Part shown: in pieces, positions 7,824 through 37,197 of the stretch
How the letters are laid out: each line of letters starts with the position of its first letter
Position numbering within the stretch: position 1 is the first letter of the stretch
Origin: Pseudopedobacter sp.
GTDB lineage: Bacteria; Bacteroidota; Bacteroidia; Sphingobacteriales; Sphingobacteriaceae
Length of the DNA: 38,221 nt
Direction: 5' to 3'
NCBI GenBank assembly: GCA_014378105.1
Contig: JACMOI010000177.1
Location: 1-38,221 of the forward strand
The notes under the pieces: generated by a model
What the model was told of the DNA's origin: nothing
The model's database searches: none
Seen by the model: the letters and a program-made list of their open reading frames with translations, nothing else
Made by a program: the position numbers and the translations under genes

Positions 7824-8585
7824 ATGAAAAAGACCCCTATATTTTTTATTGCTTTTATAGCAATCATCGTGAATGTAAGTTGTAAAAAAAGTAGTACAAC
7901 AATTACAACTGGAACATCCGGAACTTCAACTGTTCCAGATATATACAAGAAAATTTATGGTGCTACCAGCATCACCTCTGACGGGACTTATATTTACATC
8001 AAATCTAATGGGATGCCAGATCATAAAAGTGTTTATTATGCCTCCAGCAATACTTTATATGAGAATTTCACTGGAACCACATTTGGAAATAATAAATTTG
8101 TTAAAAATCCAAATACTATTAATTCGCAAAGTTTAACTTTTAAGATCCCCTTAAATCCAATAGTTGCTTCAAATCATTCAGCTACCCCATTAGGTCCAAT
8201 TGGTGTTGCGCTAAATGGAGTGCCTATTTTTAATCAATATGCAGGTCCAAATCAACCTTTAACAGGTGAAGTTGCAAGTTTCGACCAATGGTGGGGACAT
8301 CCACAAATGAGTGGACAATATCATTACCATGTAGAGCCTTTATACTTAACTACTGTAAAAGCAACTAAATCGTCTTTATTGGGCTTTTTACTGGATGGTT
8401 TACCAGTATATGGGCCTCAAGAAAATGGACAAACGGTTAACAATTCAATGCTCGATGCTTATCACGGACATACAACTGTTACTGCAGATTATCCAAATGG
8501 CATCTATCATTATCACATTACAGATACAGACCCATACATTAATGGAAGTGGCTTTTATGGTACAGCTGGTACGGTTAGTAATTAG
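7824..8585 (+). CDS. YHYH-domain lipoprotein
   Basis: 253 residues with a lipoprotein signal (VNVSCKK, Cys at about 20) and a Ser/Thr-rich linker. A YHYH domain (about 60-245) follows, named for two YHYH motifs seen here at 166-169 and 228-231. Further conserved elements are GPIGVALNGVPIFN, FDQWWGHPQ (W156, W157) just before the first YHYH, LLGFLLDGLPVYG, and DAYHGHT. The many His and Tyr residues suggest metal binding, but the biochemical role of the family is not established. Neighbours are a di-heme MauG/CCP-like enzyme and a SCO protein, pointing to periplasmic copper or redox chemistry. It overlaps the next gene by 29 bp. Confidence 0.88.
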   Translation: MKKTPIFFIAFIAIIVNVSCKKSSTTITTGTSGTSTVPDIYKKIYGATSITSDGTYIYIKSNGMPDHKSVYYASSNTLYENFTGTTFGNNKFVKNPNTINSQSLTFKIPLNPIVASNHSATPLGPIGVALNGVPIFNQYAGPNQPLTGEVASFDQWWGHPQMSGQYHYHVEPLYLTTVKATKSSLLGFLLDGLPVYGPQENGQTVNNSMLDAYHGHTTVTADYPNGIYHYHITDTDPYINGSGFYGTAGTVSN

Positions 8586-9138
8586 GGGCATTCTTTTTCT
8601 AACTTTATTTTCAGCTTGTAATTTCATTAGAAAGGAATCGAGCCTAAAACTAAATGCTGAGGATAAGTTTTTGACTGCCGTAAACGATTTAATAGTTTAT
8701 CAAGAAAAGCCTTTTACTGGGATGATTTACCAACTTTATCCTAACTCAAAAGATACCTTGTTCGTTAATAATTATACAGAAGGAAAAACCAATGGAGTCT
8801 CAAAAAAGTTTTATTCTCAGCATCAAATAAAAGAAATAAGATATTATAAAAATGGGTTAAAGGAAGGTGAATATTTAGCCTTATGGCCAGATGGAAAAAA
8901 GCAATCAGCCTATTTCTTTAAAGATGGAGAATATGAAGGTGTTTTTAGGGCGTGGAATGATGATGGGCAATTGATCCAAGAAATGCATTATGAAAAAGGA
9001 TATGAAGTAGGCTCACAAAAAATGTTTTATGATGACGGTAAAATCAGATGCAACTATCAAATGATTAACGGCAGAAGATATGGCTTATTGGGAACTAAAA
9101 ATTGTGTAAATGTATCAGACAGCGTTTTTATTAAGTAG
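8557..9138 (+). CDS. MORN/YwqK-type repeat lipoprotein
   Basis: The start is placed at ATG 8557 (MVQLVRLVIRGILFLTLFSAC), which gives a lipoprotein signal and 193 residues. A more upstream start would extend fully antiparallel to known signals inside the YHYH gene. The body has repeated motifs of the toxin-antitoxin YwqK/MORN type: TEGKTNGVSKKFYSQ, KNGLKEGEYLALWPDG, KDGEYEGVFRAWNDDG, EKGYEVGSQKMFYDDG. The 'antitoxin' label is a historical family name, and no toxin is present. It is likely a surface or periplasmic binding scaffold. It overlaps both neighbours by 29 bp, so it is clearly co-translated with them. Confidence 0.8.
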   Translation: MVQLVRLVIRGILFLTLFSACNFIRKESSLKLNAEDKFLTAVNDLIVYQEKPFTGMIYQLYPNSKDTLFVNNYTEGKTNGVSKKFYSQHQIKEIRYYKNGLKEGEYLALWPDGKKQSAYFFKDGEYEGVFRAWNDDGQLIQEMHYEKGYEVGSQKMFYDDGKIRCNYQMINGRRYGLLGTKNCVNVSDSVFIK

Positions 9139-30931: not shown

Positions 30932-31366
30932 GTGAAGTTTTTAAAGCAAGTTATGATCTTATTACTTTCTCTGATGGTGTTCATCACCTCTTCAGGGTTA
31001 ACAGTTAATTTGCATTACTGCGCTGGAAAATTACAACAAGTAAGTCTACAACAAGATCAAAAAGATTGTTTGATGAAGATGAATACAGTTATCAAAAACT
31101 GTGAAAGTAAAACTTCAAATATTAAATCTTACTCAAACTGTTGTCAAAACCATCAAATTATCGCTAAGGCGGATACAAAAATTACAAAGGCAAAAGAAGA
31201 CAATATTTTAGTGAAGTCTTATGCTGTTTTAAAAACTTATTTTATTTCCTTATTCTCTTTCTCTCTTGAGGGCGAATATAACTCAGACGATTCAAATAGT
31301 GAAAATTCACTTTTTCCAATATTAAAAGAAGGATTATACATCCTTCTTCAAAACTTTCGTGATTAG
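30932..31366 (+). CDS. HYC_CC_PP-type metal-associated protein
   Basis: 144 residues from a GTG start at 30932. After a signal peptide (MILLLSLMVFITSSG) come the family's motifs LHYC (H28, Y29, C30) and NCC (C70, C71), with C46 and C57 between them. The Pro-Pro element of the family name is not obvious here. Bacteroidota encode this small protein at the head of CusA-type efflux operons, and the Cys/His content suggests it binds copper or another soft metal in the periplasm. It precedes the split RND pump by 76 bp. The stop codon lies inside a 9-bp inverted repeat (31359-31367 with 31415-31423). Confidence 0.8.
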   Translation: MKFLKQVMILLLSLMVFITSSGLTVNLHYCAGKLQQVSLQQDQKDCLMKMNTVIKNCESKTSNIKSYSNCCQNHQIIAKADTKITKAKEDNILVKSYAVLKTYFISLFSFSLEGEYNSDDSNSENSLFPILKEGLYILLQNFRD

Positions 31367-31442: not shown

Positions 31443-32732
31443 ATGATTGAGAAACTGATATCCGTATCACTTCGCAATAGATTTATGGTTCTGCTAATTG
31501 CAGTTATTCTTTTTGGATTTGGTGTTTTCGCTATCCAAAATAATAAAATTGATGCCATACCTGATCTTTCTGAAAATCAAGTAATTGTATTTACAGAATG
31601 GCAAGGTCGCAGTCCAAAAATCATTGAGGATCAAATTACTTACCCCTTAGTCACTGGACTGCAAGGCATTCCGAAGGTCAAATATGTTAGAGCCAATTCT
31701 ATGTTTGGAATGAGCTTTATTTATATCATTTTTAAAGATGGGGTTGACCCCTATTGGGCAAGGTCTAGAGTTTTAGAAAAATTAAGTACGGTTAAAAACA
31801 CATTACCTACTGACGTTTCACCGACTCTTGGACCCGATGGAACTGGTGTTGGTCATGTTTTATGGTATACGCTAGAAACCAACGGAATGGATTTAGGAGA
31901 GCAAAGAGCCATACAGGACTGGTATGTAAAATTTTCTTTGCAAAATGTGGATGGTGTTAGTGAAATTGCTTCATTCGGAGGATTTCAGAAACAATATCAA
32001 ATCACTATTGACCCTAACAAATTAAGTTATTTCAAACTGGGTATTTCTGATGTGATGAAATCCATAAAAAGTAACAATAACGAAGCTGGAGGTAGGAAAT
32101 TTGAATTAAGTGACCGTGGCTACATCATAAAAACAGATGGTTATCTAAAGAATATTCAGGAAATTGAAAATCTTCCCATTAAAACCAATAATTCTATTCC
32201 TATAAAAGTAAAGGATGTTGCCCAAGTGCAAATGGCGGGTGACAGTAGGTTAGGTATTTTCGATTATAATGGAACAGGAGAAGCAGTGGGTGGCATTGTA
32301 GTGATGCGATACGGTGAAAATGCTGATGAAGTGATTGACCGGGTAAAAGCTAAAATGATAGAGGTTGCCAAAGGCTTACCTGAAGGTGTGAAATTTAATA
32401 TCGTTTACGATAGAAGCGGTTTAATCAAAGAATCCGTCAATAGTATTAAGCATACTTTAATAGAAGAAATGATAGTGGTTTCTTTAATCGTCATCATCTT
32501 TCTTTTGCATTGGAGAAGCGCCATCAGTATCATCATCCAAATCCCAATTACCATTGCTGCAAGTTTTATCATCTTAAATGCATTTGATATCAGTTCCAAT
32601 ATTATGTCGCTTACAGGTATTGCATTAGCTATCGGTGTGATTGTAGATAATGGGATTATCATGTCGGAGAATTCATATAAACAGTTGTCCATAAGACAAG
32701 CTGAGTTAAACGCTAAATCGGAAGAGAAATGA
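31443..32732 (+). CDS. cusA: RND heavy-metal efflux pump, N-terminal half (CusA-like)
   Basis: 429 residues that match the first half of CusA/CzcA pumps: TM1 (MVLLIAVILFGFGVFAI), IDAIPDLSENQVIVFTEWQG, YPLVTGLQGIPKVKYVRANS, LPTDVSPTLGPDGTG, GFQKQYQITIDPNKL, VYDRSGLIKESVNSIKHTL, and TM2-TM4. The proton-relay Asp in TM4 is present (IGVIVDNGIIMSEN, D402). The protein then ends in the cytoplasmic loop that normally joins TM4 to TM5, in a charged sequence (RQAELNAKSEEK). The stop TGA overlaps the ATG of the second half (ATGA). Family pumps are about 1040 residues in one chain, so this is either a natural split or a frameshift. Confidence 0.9.
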   Translation: MIEKLISVSLRNRFMVLLIAVILFGFGVFAIQNNKIDAIPDLSENQVIVFTEWQGRSPKIIEDQITYPLVTGLQGIPKVKYVRANSMFGMSFIYIIFKDGVDPYWARSRVLEKLSTVKNTLPTDVSPTLGPDGTGVGHVLWYTLETNGMDLGEQRAIQDWYVKFSLQNVDGVSEIASFGGFQKQYQITIDPNKLSYFKLGISDVMKSIKSNNNEAGGRKFELSDRGYIIKTDGYLKNIQEIENLPIKTNNSIPIKVKDVAQVQMAGDSRLGIFDYNGTGEAVGGIVVMRYGENADEVIDRVKAKMIEVAKGLPEGVKFNIVYDRSGLIKESVNSIKHTLIEEMIVVSLIVIIFLLHWRSAISIIIQIPITIAASFIILNAFDISSNIMSLTGIALAIGVIVDNGIIMSENSYKQLSIRQAELNAKSEEK

Positions 32733-34672
32733 GCAGATTGAAAAATATATTTAAAAGAAAATCCGATAATAGCTACGTTAAGCTAGACGAAAAAGAACGC
32801 TTATCTATTATCGAAAGGGCTTGTCAGCAAGTTTCTAGAGGAGTTTTTTATTCTACAATAATTATCATCACTTCGTTTTTACCGGTGTTCTTATTAACCG
32901 GGCAGGAAGGAAAATTATTTCACCCCTTAGCTTATACCAAAACGTTTATTCTTTTGGTGGATGCCATTTTGGTAGTGACTTTAGCTCCCGTTATGATTTC
33001 TTTTTTTATGAAAGGAAGATTTCGGTCAGATAATCATAATCCTATTAACAGATTTTTAGAGCGTATTTACGAACCTTTAATTAGGAAGTGTTTGAAGTAC
33101 AGAAAAACTACTTTAGGTATCAATCTACTAGCCTTAATCATTAGTATTCCGATGTTATTTAGCCTAGGCAGAGAGTTTATGCCACCATTAGACGAACAGT
33201 CTATTCTCTTTATGCCAGTTACGCTTCCTGATGTTTCAAACAGCGAAATTAAAAGGATTTTACAAGTGCAGGATAAAATCATCAAGAGTACTCCTGAAGT
33301 CGAGAAAGTATTAGGAAAAGCTGGTAGAGCCAATACCGCAACAGACAACTCTCCTATCAGCATGATTGAAACCATCATTCTGTTAAAGCCAAAAGACCAA
33401 TGGAGACCAGGGATGACCAAGAAAAAAATCGTAGAGGAATTGGATGGAAAACTTCAAATTCCAGGTGTGGTAAACGGTTGGACGCAACCCATTATCAATC
33501 GTATCAATATGTTATCAACGGGTATCAGAACTGATGTCGGTGTAAAGGTATATGGTCAAAATTTAAATGAAATTGCGAAGGTTGAAGACCAGATAAAAGC
33601 AAGATTAGAAGGAATTCCGGGGGTGAAAGATTTATATGTTGAACCAGTTACTGGGGGTAAATATTTGGAAATCACAATTAAAAGAGACGAATTAGCAAGA
33701 TATGGATTAGACATAGATGATGTAAATGCCACTGTAGAGGCCGCTATTGGGGGACTTCCTTTTGCAAATACCGTAGAAGGGAGACAAAGATTTGATATTT
33801 CTGTCCGTTTGGCTCAAGACTATAGAAATAGCATTGAGAAACTGAAACGTATTCCTATCAATTCACCAGATGCGGGCACCATTCCGCTTTCTTCGGTAGT
33901 AGAAATCAAATTAGCGGACGGACCTCCAATGATTACCTCAGAAAATGCTTTGCTTCGTGGTGCGGTAATGTTCAATGTGCGGGATCGAGATTTAGGAACT
34001 ACGGTAGATGAAGCAATGAAAAAGCTAAATGGAGAAATCAATCTGCCGAAAGGCTATTTCTTAGAATGGAGTGGACAATATGAGAATTTAATCCGCGGAG
34101 AGAAAACACTCTTACTTATTTTACCAGTAGTATTGGTCATTATCTTTTTAGCACTTTATTTAGCTTTCAAATCTGCTAGAGAAGCTTTCTTAAGTTTAAT
34201 CACTATACCATTTGCTTTAATTGGAGGTGCTTATATGGTTTATTTCTACGGTGTTAACCTCTCCATTGCGGTGGCGGTAGGCTTTATAGCCTTATTCGGA
34301 ATTGCAGTGGAAACCGGAGTAGTGATGGTGATTTATTTAAACGATGCGATGCAACAGCTGGTGAAAGAAAAGGGAAACTCCAGAGAAACCATCACCAAAG
34401 AAGATATCAAACAATATGTGATCATGGGTGCTGCCAAAAGACTTCGTCCAAAGATTATGACGGTTTGTGTGGCTTTATTCGGTTTGATTCCCGTTTTATG
34501 GAGTAATGGTGTAGGTAGCGATGTCATGTTACCTATTGTACTTCCCATGATTGGCGGAGTGCTTACCTCTTCTACTCACATCTTATTGGTTACCCCGCTC
34601 ATTTTTCTGATGAGTAAAGAGTATGAATTAAATAAATATGGAAAACTGGAGGTATTAGATGTTAAACACTAA
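32729..34672 (+). CDS. cusA: RND heavy-metal efflux pump, C-terminal half (CusA-like)
   Basis: 647 residues continuing the pump from the TM4-TM5 loop: ERACQQVSRGVFYSTIIIIT (TM5), FLLTGQEGKLFHPLAYTKTF, the large periplasmic domain (LGREFMPPLDEQSILFMPVT, GKAGRANTATDNSPISMIET, QPIINRINMLSTGIRTDVGV, VEAAIGGLPFANTVEGRQRF), and TM7-TM12 with GGAYMVYFYGVNLSIAVAVG, IAVETGVVMV and RPKIMTVCVALFGLIPVLWS. It begins with its own ATG preceded by the purine-rich ggaagag, plus an extra basic linker (RLKNIFKRKSDNSYVKL) not needed by the fold. In its own frame the region upstream closes with TAA at 32714, so only 32717-32732 could hold a single frameshift. Both halves are otherwise intact. The last 14 bp overlap the TolC-like gene. 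Confidence 0.9.
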   Translation: MSRLKNIFKRKSDNSYVKLDEKERLSIIERACQQVSRGVFYSTIIIITSFLPVFLLTGQEGKLFHPLAYTKTFILLVDAILVVTLAPVMISFFMKGRFRSDNHNPINRFLERIYEPLIRKCLKYRKTTLGINLLALIISIPMLFSLGREFMPPLDEQSILFMPVTLPDVSNSEIKRILQVQDKIIKSTPEVEKVLGKAGRANTATDNSPISMIETIILLKPKDQWRPGMTKKKIVEELDGKLQIPGVVNGWTQPIINRINMLSTGIRTDVGVKVYGQNLNEIAKVEDQIKARLEGIPGVKDLYVEPVTGGKYLEITIKRDELARYGLDIDDVNATVEAAIGGLPFANTVEGRQRFDISVRLAQDYRNSIEKLKRIPINSPDAGTIPLSSVVEIKLADGPPMITSENALLRGAVMFNVRDRDLGTTVDEAMKKLNGEINLPKGYFLEWSGQYENLIRGEKTLLLILPVVLVIIFLALYLAFKSAREAFLSLITIPFALIGGAYMVYFYGVNLSIAVAVGFIALFGIAVETGVVMVIYLNDAMQQLVKEKGNSRETITKEDIKQYVIMGAAKRLRPKIMTVCVALFGLIPVLWSNGVGSDVMLPIVLPMIGGVLTSSTHILLVTPLIFLMSKEYELNKYGKLEVLDVKH

Positions 34673-35909
34673 AAAACATATTATTACGCTTTCGCTGATG
34701 CTTTTGGGTATTACAGCTTCCTATGCTCAAGAAAAGCTTAGTTTAGATAGCCTCATTCAAGTAATCAAAAAATCTAATCCCGAGTTAATGGTTTATGACC
34801 AGCAGATAAAGAGCCAGGATGCGAAAATTGATGGCGCCAGTGCATGGATGGCGCCAATGGTAGGTGTGGCTAGTTTTATGACTCCTTATAATAATTTCTC
34901 CAGACCGGGTAATCAGCAGGATGGTTCTTTCATGCTCACCGCCGAACAAAAATTCCCGAATAAAAGTAAGATTAACAGTACCAAAAACTTCTACACCGCA
35001 CAAGCTGCGATCACCAAAGAGGGAAAGGCGGAAAACTTTAATCAATTAAGGGCAATGGCCAGATCAATTTATTTCGAGACTTTGGTTCTCGAAAGAAAAT
35101 TACAATTTGATCAGCAAAACCTTGAAATATTAAAGAATTTAAAGAAGCTATCTGAAATCAGGTACACCTATAACAAAGCTGAATTGGCAGAAATTTATCA
35201 GATGGAAGCTAAGATCTATCAACTCCAAAATAAAATATCTGATACGCATGCCAATATCAATATCGGTAAAATTAAACTGAATACATTAATGAATCGAGAT
35301 GTTGAAACCACTTTTCAGTTAGATAGTAAAGCGATGGATTTCACTTTAATAAATACCCTTAACGAACAGGAAATCAGTGAAAAAAGGAGTTTAAGTAAAC
35401 AATATGATGCGCAAATTAAAAGTCTGCAATTAGAGAATAAAATGATTGCGGCTGATGCTAAACCTGAGTTTAGCTTACAGTTTAACCACATGATTACCTA
35501 CAATACCATTATGCCAAATCAATTTAGTTTAATGGCAGGTATTAGTATTCCTTTTGCGCCGTGGGCTGCCAAATCTTATCAATCTAAATTAAAATCAAAT
35601 GAGTTTGAGACCGCAGCAATGCAACAACAAAAAGAAAGCTTCATCATTAATAATATTGGAATGATAAAGACCCAGGAGGAACATCTAAAGCACATTAAAA
35701 TGGAGCTAGACTTATATGAGCAAAAGATTATCCCAGCTTTGCAAAAAAGTTATGATGTCAATCTCCTAAACTATCAGGAAAATAAAGCCGATTTATTAAC
35801 TGTATTAAATGCTTGGAAGGATTTAAACGAAGCGCAACTAGATGAGCTCGATTTATCAAACACCTATTATCAAATGCTAGCAGAATATGGAAAGAATGTG
35901 GAGAAATAG
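34659..35909 (+). CDS. TolC/CusC-like outer-membrane efflux protein
   Basis: 416 residues with a signal peptide (ITASYAQ, to about residue 23). The rest is mostly long coiled-coil helices with the two-repeat OEP pattern: LDSLIQVIKKSNPELMVYDQ, then LRAMARSIYFETLVLERKL and YTYNKAELAEIYQMEAKIYQ for repeat 1, and ESFIINNIGMIKTQEEHLKH, SYDVNLLNYQENKADLLTVL, NAWKDLNEAQLDELDLSNTY for repeat 2. It supplies the outer-membrane channel for the RND pump. Overlap with both neighbours (14 and 23 bp) shows tight translational coupling. Confidence 0.9.
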   Translation: MLNTKKHIITLSLMLLGITASYAQEKLSLDSLIQVIKKSNPELMVYDQQIKSQDAKIDGASAWMAPMVGVASFMTPYNNFSRPGNQQDGSFMLTAEQKFPNKSKINSTKNFYTAQAAITKEGKAENFNQLRAMARSIYFETLVLERKLQFDQQNLEILKNLKKLSEIRYTYNKAELAEIYQMEAKIYQLQNKISDTHANINIGKIKLNTLMNRDVETTFQLDSKAMDFTLINTLNEQEISEKRSLSKQYDAQIKSLQLENKMIAADAKPEFSLQFNHMITYNTIMPNQFSLMAGISIPFAPWAAKSYQSKLKSNEFETAAMQQQKESFIINNIGMIKTQEEHLKHIKMELDLYEQKIIPALQKSYDVNLLNYQENKADLLTVLNAWKDLNEAQLDELDLSNTYYQMLAEYGKNVEK

Positions 35910-37197
35910 AGTAGAGAGTTTGGCGCTAAGCGTTCAAAGTGAAAAGTTAAGAGTAAAAAGCCTAAAGAAAACTACTTTTCTTCTTATTGCTTGTTGTTTT
36001 ATACTTTCTACTTTACTATTGGGTTGCCAATCCAATACCGATAAAAAAACTGGAAAAACTAAGCAAAAAGGAGTCGTTAAATACACTTGCTCCATGCACC
36101 CTCAGGTAATTAAAGATGGCCCAGGTACCTGCCCTATTTGTTGGATGGATTTAGTGAGGTTAAACCATCAGGATGTGCATTTAGCTGTTGATGCTGATTT
36201 AAAAGATTTAATAAAGCCTACCAACGAGTCTATTGTCTCAAACATCAAAACCATTCATCCTCAAGAATTGAGTCTTTCGGACACGATTCTGTTAAATGGA
36301 AAAGTAAGTTACGATACGAGACAAATTAAAACCATTACTGCCCGTTTTGGTGGAAGAATAGAGCGAATGTTTGTGAAGTACAATTTTCAGAAAGTGGTTA
36401 AAGGCCAAAAAATTATGGAGGTTTATAGTCCAGATTTAGCTGCCGCTCAACAAGAGTTATTGTATTTAAAAGCACAAGATGACCCATCGTTATTAACAAG
36501 AGCAAAAGAAAAAATACGATTATTAGGTATTGACAATCAACAAATTAATCAGATTATTAAAAGTGGAAAAGTAAATTATCATCTCCCCATTTATAGTAAT
36601 TATAGTGGTTATGTGGTTGACCCCGTAATGGATAAAAGACTAAATGAAAAGACCGATAATACGTTTAATGATGCACAAAATGCTATTGCTTTTTTGCAAG
36701 GTCAATATATTAAAACAGGTGATATGTTATTTAAAGTATTCAACCAACAACAAGTATGGGGAATATTTTATGTGGATGCGCATCAACAACAGCATTTAAA
36801 AAGCAATCAATCCATAGGTATCATTTATAAAAGGGACACCCTTCAAACGAAAATCAGTTTAGTCCAACCTTATTACGATGGTGGACAACCTTACACTTTG
36901 GTAAGGGTAACGCTAAATAATGACCAGGAGCAATTCCACATTGGCGAATTTTTAAAAGCGCAATACATCTCCCCTGCAATTCAGGGTTTATGGGTTCCTA
37001 CAAATTCCGTTTACAAGTTGGGAAATAGATCCATTATTTTTATAAAGGAGCAAAATATTTTAACTGCGAAAGTTGTACAAACAGGCGCTACAGTTGGAAA
37101 GCAAATTCAAATTATAAATGGGCTGCAAAAAGGAGATGAAATTGCTGAAAGTGCAGCCTATTTAATAGATACAGAAAGTTTTATTCAAATCAATTGA
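35887..37197 (+). CDS. Periplasmic adaptor (CusB/HlyD-like) with heavy-metal-binding domain, first copy
   Basis: 436 residues. A lipoprotein signal ends in STLLLGC (C47). The segment before it is long (about 27 residues ahead of the hydrophobic core), so a later start, such as TTG near codon 12, may be correct. Next comes the small heavy-metal-binding domain (KYTCSMHPQVIKDGPGTC, then CPICWMDLV, 67-90; C68, H71, C82, C85). The usual CGM is CWM here. The HlyD/CusB adaptor follows: GRIERMFVKYNFQKVVKGQK, long helical hairpin at about 190-230, YSNYSGYVVD, and barrel strands to AESAAYLIDTESFI. It bridges pump and channel, and may hand metal to the pump. It overlaps the TolC-like gene by 23 bp. Confidence 0.88.
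   Translation: MERMWRNRVESLALSVQSEKLRVKSLKKTTFLLIACCFILSTLLLGCQSNTDKKTGKTKQKGVVKYTCSMHPQVIKDGPGTCPICWMDLVRLNHQDVHLAVDADLKDLIKPTNESIVSNIKTIHPQELSLSDTILLNGKVSYDTRQIKTITARFGGRIERMFVKYNFQKVVKGQKIMEVYSPDLAAAQQELLYLKAQDDPSLLTRAKEKIRLLGIDNQQINQIIKSGKVNYHLPIYSNYSGYVVDPVMDKRLNEKTDNTFNDAQNAIAFLQGQYIKTGDMLFKVFNQQQVWGIFYVDAHQQQHLKSNQSIGIIYKRDTLQTKISLVQPYYDGGQPYTLVRVTLNNDQEQFHIGEFLKAQYISPAIQGLWVPTNSVYKLGNRSIIFIKEQNILTAKVVQTGATVGKQIQIINGLQKGDEIAESAAYLIDTESFIQIN

Follow-up and report, generated by a model that had tools for sequence, protein, structure and literature searches.

A Conserved Two-Gene Form of a CusA-Type Metal-Efflux Permease, Predicted to Assemble from Two Chains, in Bacteroidota

The Pump Locus of Pseudopedobacter sp.

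The window, i.e., the whole stretch of 38,221 nucleotides analyzed here (contig JACMOI010000177.1 of assembly GCA_014378105.1, Pseudopedobacter sp.), carries on its forward strand two open reading frames which together cover a heavy-metal RND permease. Chain 1, with 429 aa and an ATG start, is encoded at 31443–32732 and comprises the N-terminal part through TM4, and chain 2, with 647 aa and likewise an ATG start, is encoded at 32729–34672 and comprises TM5–TM12 with the second periplasmic domain (TM numbers by CusA homology). The chain 1 stop and the chain 2 start overlap in the tetranucleotide ATGA (32729–32732, forward strand), and a purine-rich ggaagag is found at 32720–32726 on the same strand. 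An earlier note, made from the sequence alone, had described two frames of 429 and 647 codons with a 4-bp ATGA overlap and ggaagag before the second ATG; re-reading of the coordinates bore out both items. Bacteroidota show little reliance on purine-rich ribosome sites.

The pump genes have neighbors on the same strand. Just 5′ of the pump genes lies a gene for a small HYC_CC_PP family protein (30932–31366; NCBIfam NF047658, E 6.6e-15), relatives of which also precede the pump genes in four other loci (L273, L275, L276, and L281). Downstream are a TolC-like outer membrane factor (34659–35909; Pfam OEP, E 3.9e-25), a CusB-like periplasmic adaptor with a heavy-metal-binding domain (35887–37197; Pfam HlyD_D23 and HMBD), and a second CusB-like adaptor with the same kind of domain, which runs off the contig end (37202–38221). 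Genes for CusB-like adaptors and TolC-like channels adjoin the split pump in other loci as well as in the window. Elsewhere in the window, an ORF at 8395–9138 shares 191 nt, in another frame, with the end of a YHYH-domain ORF (7824–8585), and is followed by an SCO1/SenC gene at 9110.

Two Frames Corresponding to One Permease

The two frames divide the permease family profiles between them almost without remainder. In Pfam ACR_tran (1021 positions), frame 1 corresponds to 2–418 and frame 2 to 416–1019, and in TIGR00914 (the CusA/CzcA family, 1051 positions), to 1–429 and 428–1035, respectively; taken singly, the frames score 450.2 and 637.9 bits against TIGR00914, each below the curated cut-off of 701.45. 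Both halves align along CusA of Escherichia coli (E 2.5e-118 for chain 1 and 8.8e-166 for chain 2). When aligned with the solved CusA structure, frame 1 reaches chain index 427 and frame 2 sets in at 435, which puts the break at approximately CusA residues 420–428 (M1 being index 8), at least 15 residues past D405 of TM4, i.e., in the loop after TM4 where it had been located before. AlphaFold2 models of the chains taken singly, from 37-row alignments, are poor (mean pLDDT 66 and 60) and carry no weight as structural evidence; a Foldseek search with them still gave CusA entries at the top for both chains, with rmsd values of about 11 and 14.

Extra residues had also been noticed on each side of the break, and these are real: the linker, counted as the chain 1 tail plus the chain 2 head, has a median of 49 residues over the 116 split representatives, whereas it measures 19–30 in six one-frame members within the clade and has a median of 28 in 25 one-frame outgroup members. 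The chain lengths themselves are stable, with medians of 428 residues for chain 1 (111 measured) and 644 for chain 2 (116 measured). Since two frames are found in the window and in most of the clade in place of the one chain of about 1040 residues, a customary feature outside the homology definition of the family, the window pump is a two-chain variant of the CusA/CzcA family and no typical member of it.

Distribution of the Split Form

A protein search with frame 1, which by design returned only proteins of 0.55–1.75 times the query length, gave 120 relatives of 415–435 aa among the matches listed, some of them on contigs longer than 100 kb, in Pedobacter, Pelobium, Daejeonella, Arcticibacter, Desertivirga, and others. 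Second-half matches were collected from genome samples of the same family, the same class, and the phylum, which overlap in some genomes. In the family sample, 104 out of 301 genomes have a match at E ≤ 1e-150, and the 115 matches consist of 108 frames of 632–735 aa, four of 1051–1100 aa, and three shorter ones (461, 439, and 300 aa). The class sample has matches at E ≤ 1e-130 in 56 out of 395 genomes, 58 of the 65 being 631–728 aa and seven 958–1082 aa. In the phylum sample (296 genomes, 116 with a match), the best 23 matches are all half-length (643–728 aa) and are followed by long frames, almost all of them exceeding 1,000 aa, with three shorter (725, 815, and 913 aa). The closest named loci, taken as the best 80 of at least 560 recovered by searching with aligned split members, are split in 78 cases, including Pedobacter, Chitinophaga, Flavobacterium, Spirosoma, Larkinella, and Cyclobacteriaceae, and the other two (L105 and L116) begin inside the chain 1 gene at a contig end. 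Throughout this survey, whose scope is Bacteroidota, 242 fetched loci were reduced to 207 distinct ones, namely 164 split, 33 one-frame, and 10 without an adjacent first half (the two contig-end loci and eight permuted genomes, see below); 164 out of 207 is no prevalence, because many of the loci were chosen as outliers or outgroup.

Thus, comparison of the junction with relatives, which the earlier note had proposed as a check, finds the split recurring across Bacteroidota genera. A close relative with one intact frame, which the note had named as the refuting observation, was not found; the one-frame members within the clade show second-half identities of about 55–72% and linkers of ordinary length.

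Split pumps also occur on Bacteroidota plasmids (L080, Fibrisoma limi pFLIM01; L283; L284). The plasmid records matched number 3053, of which 3041 are below 60% identity. In the Mucilaginibacter robiniae plasmid (L283:11448–12808), the first adaptor after the split pump is annotated as two short genes with a 4-bp overlap.

In the literature searched, no description of a split CusA/CzcA or other RND permease was found, by which absence from print is not implied. A study of gene-order variants of heavy-metal pumps on plasmids does not contain the word “split” in its main text (PMC8272295), nor does a paper listing CusA-like proteins of Bizionia contain it (PMC11213822).

Junctions, Intervening Genes, and Permuted Operons

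The break point in the protein is conserved, while the DNA of the junction is not. Among the 116 representatives, the halves overlap by 4 nt in 21, 11 nt in 17, 1 nt in eight, 8 nt in six, 14 nt in two, and 23 nt in one, abut exactly in one, and are separated by gaps of up to hundreds of nucleotides in the remainder, as counted by beginning chain 2 at whichever start codon lies closest to the stop of chain 1, a rule that biases towards small gaps. The relative frame of the halves takes all three values (59, 48, and 9), and chain 1 ends with TAA in 70, TGA in 34, and TAG in 12. Of the idea of a two-subunit pump with coupled translation, a real two-gene permease is strongly supported by the conserved split, the intervening genes, and the eight permuted genomes. 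The coupling is the weaker part: an overlap of 4 nt is seen in only these 21 representatives, and the ATGA is a local detail and not a conserved device. A conserved KNIFKK-like start of chain 2, seen in close relatives, was considered as a further argument and dropped, as it is found in only 34 or 42 of the 116, depending on the way of writing it; what is left is a basic tendency, with a median net charge of +3 in the first 15 residues.

The halves are 59–952 nt apart in 17 out of 195 split loci, picked out because the distance from the first stop to the conserved core exceeded 150 nt; two pairs (L006/L054 and L082/L151) appear to be the same loci, and 16 were inspected, L151 being omitted as a copy of L082. 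Judging from labels read from the sequence, methyltransferase-like genes lie between the halves in Fibrella rubiginis (L082) and Chitinophaga japonensis (L111), a four-helix-bundle-like gene in Pedobacter segetis (L054), and genes for small heavy-metal-binding proteins in L166, L169, L170, and L172; only the protein of L166 (as L282) was matched by BLAST, to an HMBD-bearing adaptor. The genes with heavy-metal-binding-type motifs look as if recruited into the operon. Another frame, of 194 aa, lies between the halves in L176, and in several other separated loci the intervening DNA is short and holds no clear gene.

There are more distant arrangements. In eight genomes, no first half adjoins the second half. 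A first-half search of these and three further genomes found one in 11 out of 11, and in all eight permuted genomes it is an open frame of 424–483 aa on the same contig and strand, 3.6–5.9 kb downstream of the second half. The order is then second half, channel, two adaptors, in five out of eight at least one further gene, and first half. The eight genomes form one branch in the trees of both halves, with SH-aLRT support of 100 and 99%. Two permuted operons (L223/L280 in G845 and L218/L274 in G830) are in genomes placed outside the class of the window, which may reflect horizontal transfer.

Key Residues and Constraint

CusA has an established three-methionine metal site, M573/M623/M672, and an established proton relay formed by D405, E939, and K984 (PMC8092243). 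By alignment, the counterpart of D405 is D402 of chain 1 (codon at 32646–32648), which is D in each of the 114 rows whose first half was usable; this count does not take in the permuted rows and three more. The others are on chain 2: M162 (33212–33214), M212 (33362–33364), and M261 (33509–33511), corresponding to M573, M623, and M672, are M in 125 out of 125 rows, and E528 (34310–34312) and K575 (34451–34453), corresponding to E939 and K984, are kept in 116 (Q in eight, S in one) and 119 (L or I in six), respectively; all these codons are on the forward strand. Some members may work differently, given the nine replacements at E528 and the six at K575. With D402 on chain 1 and E528 and K575 on chain 2, each chain lacks a part of the relay, and neither alone should be able to pump. 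CusA E625 is kept. Of the three transmembrane methionine pairs of CusA, only M391–M1009 is kept as a pair (M388 in 113 out of 114 and M600 in 125 out of 125), and M403–M486 and M410–M501 are mostly lost; M755 is lost, and M271 is outside the count. The site methionines and one plasmid copy lying among copper genes suggest a pump of the Cu(I)/Ag(I) type like CusA rather than of the divalent type like CzcA.

Both frames are under constraint. Against the nearest relative (L002), dN/dS is about 0.02 for frame 1 (0.003/0.154) and about 0.03 for frame 2 (0.004/0.154); against six other relatives tried, dS was saturated or not computable. In one genome (G024, locus L019), a frameshift interrupts chain 2, and this copy may be decaying.

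Trees of the Two Halves

In the second-half tree (156 rows), all split members fall into a 131-row group with 99% support, which includes six one-frame rows at four places, and the rows outside the group are one-frame. The one-frame members within the group carry the same two parts in one chain. The one-frame label changes five times on the chain 2 tree and five times on the chain 1 tree (152 rows, four of the 156 having no usable first half; L019, whose second half is short, was omitted from the trees), and a mixture-model tree of 69 rows gives five changes too. An AU test rejects a topology in which the split rows form a single clade to the exclusion of the one-frame rows (p 1.5e-61). Distances in the chain 1 and chain 2 trees correlate with r 0.86 over 122 rows, as would fit two chains that belong together, and as shared descent by itself would also predict.

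Alternative Explanations

Seen in the window alone, a one-base insertion or deletion near 32717–32732 would give the same picture as a natural break, and a frameshift mutation or sequencing error had been named as an alternative. The source genome is a 191-contig assembly with an estimated contamination of 6.38%. The break of an ordinary single gene by an error of sequencing or assembly, or by a recent frameshift, is refuted by the split being conserved in independent genomes: the break is common to more than 100 of them with different junction DNA, the halves elsewhere are separated by genes or permuted, and dN/dS is low in both frames, which leaves it a negligible probability. Hardly more credible is a full-length pump made by programmed frameshifting or stop-codon readthrough. 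A slip within the 4-nt overlap of the window could in principle join the frames, but the halves stand in all three relative frames with all three stop codons, and separated or permuted halves are not joinable in this way. The varied junctions, the intervening genes, and the permuted order thus rule out sequencing error, and also rule out frameshifting and readthrough as a general explanation. That the chains are made while the pump is a relic, or that each has acquired a separate new function, might be suggested by the frameshifted chain 2 of G024 and has a slightly better, still very small chance. It is opposed by the low dN/dS of both halves, the invariant metal-site residues, the presence of the partner genes, and the finding of chain 1 in every one of the eight genomes where it is not beside chain 2. 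In all, this is a natural and old two-gene form of a CusA-type permease.

For the origin of this two-gene form, the history favored by the trees consists of one fission, a single permutation, and four re-fusions, which is the likely course, with the exact number of fission and fusion events unsure, as the trees are quick ones in which some long branches meet. The ancestor was likely one continuous chain, which a single cut in the cytoplasmic TM4–TM5 loop divided, with a few later re-fusions. Or the split may have been acquired repeatedly, each time from a one-chain ancestor, and never reversed by fusion: one-frame members with ordinary linker lengths are nested among the split ones, and the loop seems to tolerate breaks. 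This would require 16 independent fissions against one fission and four fusions, or 11 and nine after collapsing branches with less than 80% and 95% support, respectively, and is unlikely.

A Predicted Two-Chain Pump

Very probably, then, two separate genes conserved in many Bacteroidota encode products that would assemble into one CusA-type metal-efflux permease; we infer this assembly of both chains. Chain 1, with TM1–4 and the first periplasmic domain, would dock with chain 2, with TM5–12 and the second, by way of contacts that in one-chain CusA lie within the protein, and three such two-chain protomers would make up the trimer. The path of the protons would be a relay to which both chains contribute, D402 from chain 1 and E528 and K575 from chain 2. 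On chain 2, M162, M212, and M261 would bind Cu(I)/Ag(I), which would then move on to the adaptor and the outer channel.

A bolder and rather improbable proposal is that Bacteroidia possess an obligate two-subunit RND permease (4 TM + 8 TM) that arose by one fission and survived permutation, that genomes with two or three copies may swap chains between paralogous loci to form mixed pumps, and that the ends set free by the cut, the basic start of chain 2 among them, may have become sites for assembly or control. Three second-half matches each are found in five genomes (G144, G048, G667, G454, and G455), which raises the question of mixed chains; one of the three in G048 is partial, and one in G455 is a distant one-frame gene.

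RND efflux permeases have been studied as single chains. A natural and widespread cut inside the first repeat would mean that continuity of the TM4–TM5 loop is dispensable, and, as the cut separates the proton-relay aspartate on chain 1 from its partners on chain 2, docking, coupling, and stoichiometry become testable with separate tags. There is also a consequence for annotation: in two plasmid records (L283 and L284), the two halves each bear the label of an efflux RND transporter permease subunit, and with halves annotated singly in this way, such pumps may be overcounted in Bacteroidota, and a half may be mistaken for a broken gene.

Comparison with Known Systems

The closest characterized system is CusA of E. 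coli, the HME-RND copper/silver permease (PDB 3k07, 3t51, and 7kf5–7kf8), with which the pump shares the full-length alignment, the metal site, the proton relay, and the CusB- and TolC-like partners, the difference being that CusA is one chain and the present permease is encoded as two, broken after TM4 and with a linker about 20 residues longer. Other classes of Bacteroidota have one-chain CusA/CzcA relatives (L225, L226, L229–L233, and L237–L241), the nearest of which form the sister group in the tree; these relatives are about 40–52% identical over chain 2 and differ in having a single frame of about 1046–1135 residues with an ordinary linker.

Two genes for one RND pump are also known in MdtB and MdtC, two different proteins making one pump, each of them a complete 12-TM chain. 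In the present case, it would take both chains to make up a single protomer. SecD/SecF, an RND-fold transporter for protein secretion, can likewise be two chains, and has been reviewed as a heterodimeric 2 × 6 TM arrangement with a fused protein in Thermus (PMC8277102). SecD/SecF is not a tripartite efflux system and is cut between its two six-TM repeats (6 + 6), whereas the cut in the Bacteroidota permease lies inside the first repeat (4 + 8).
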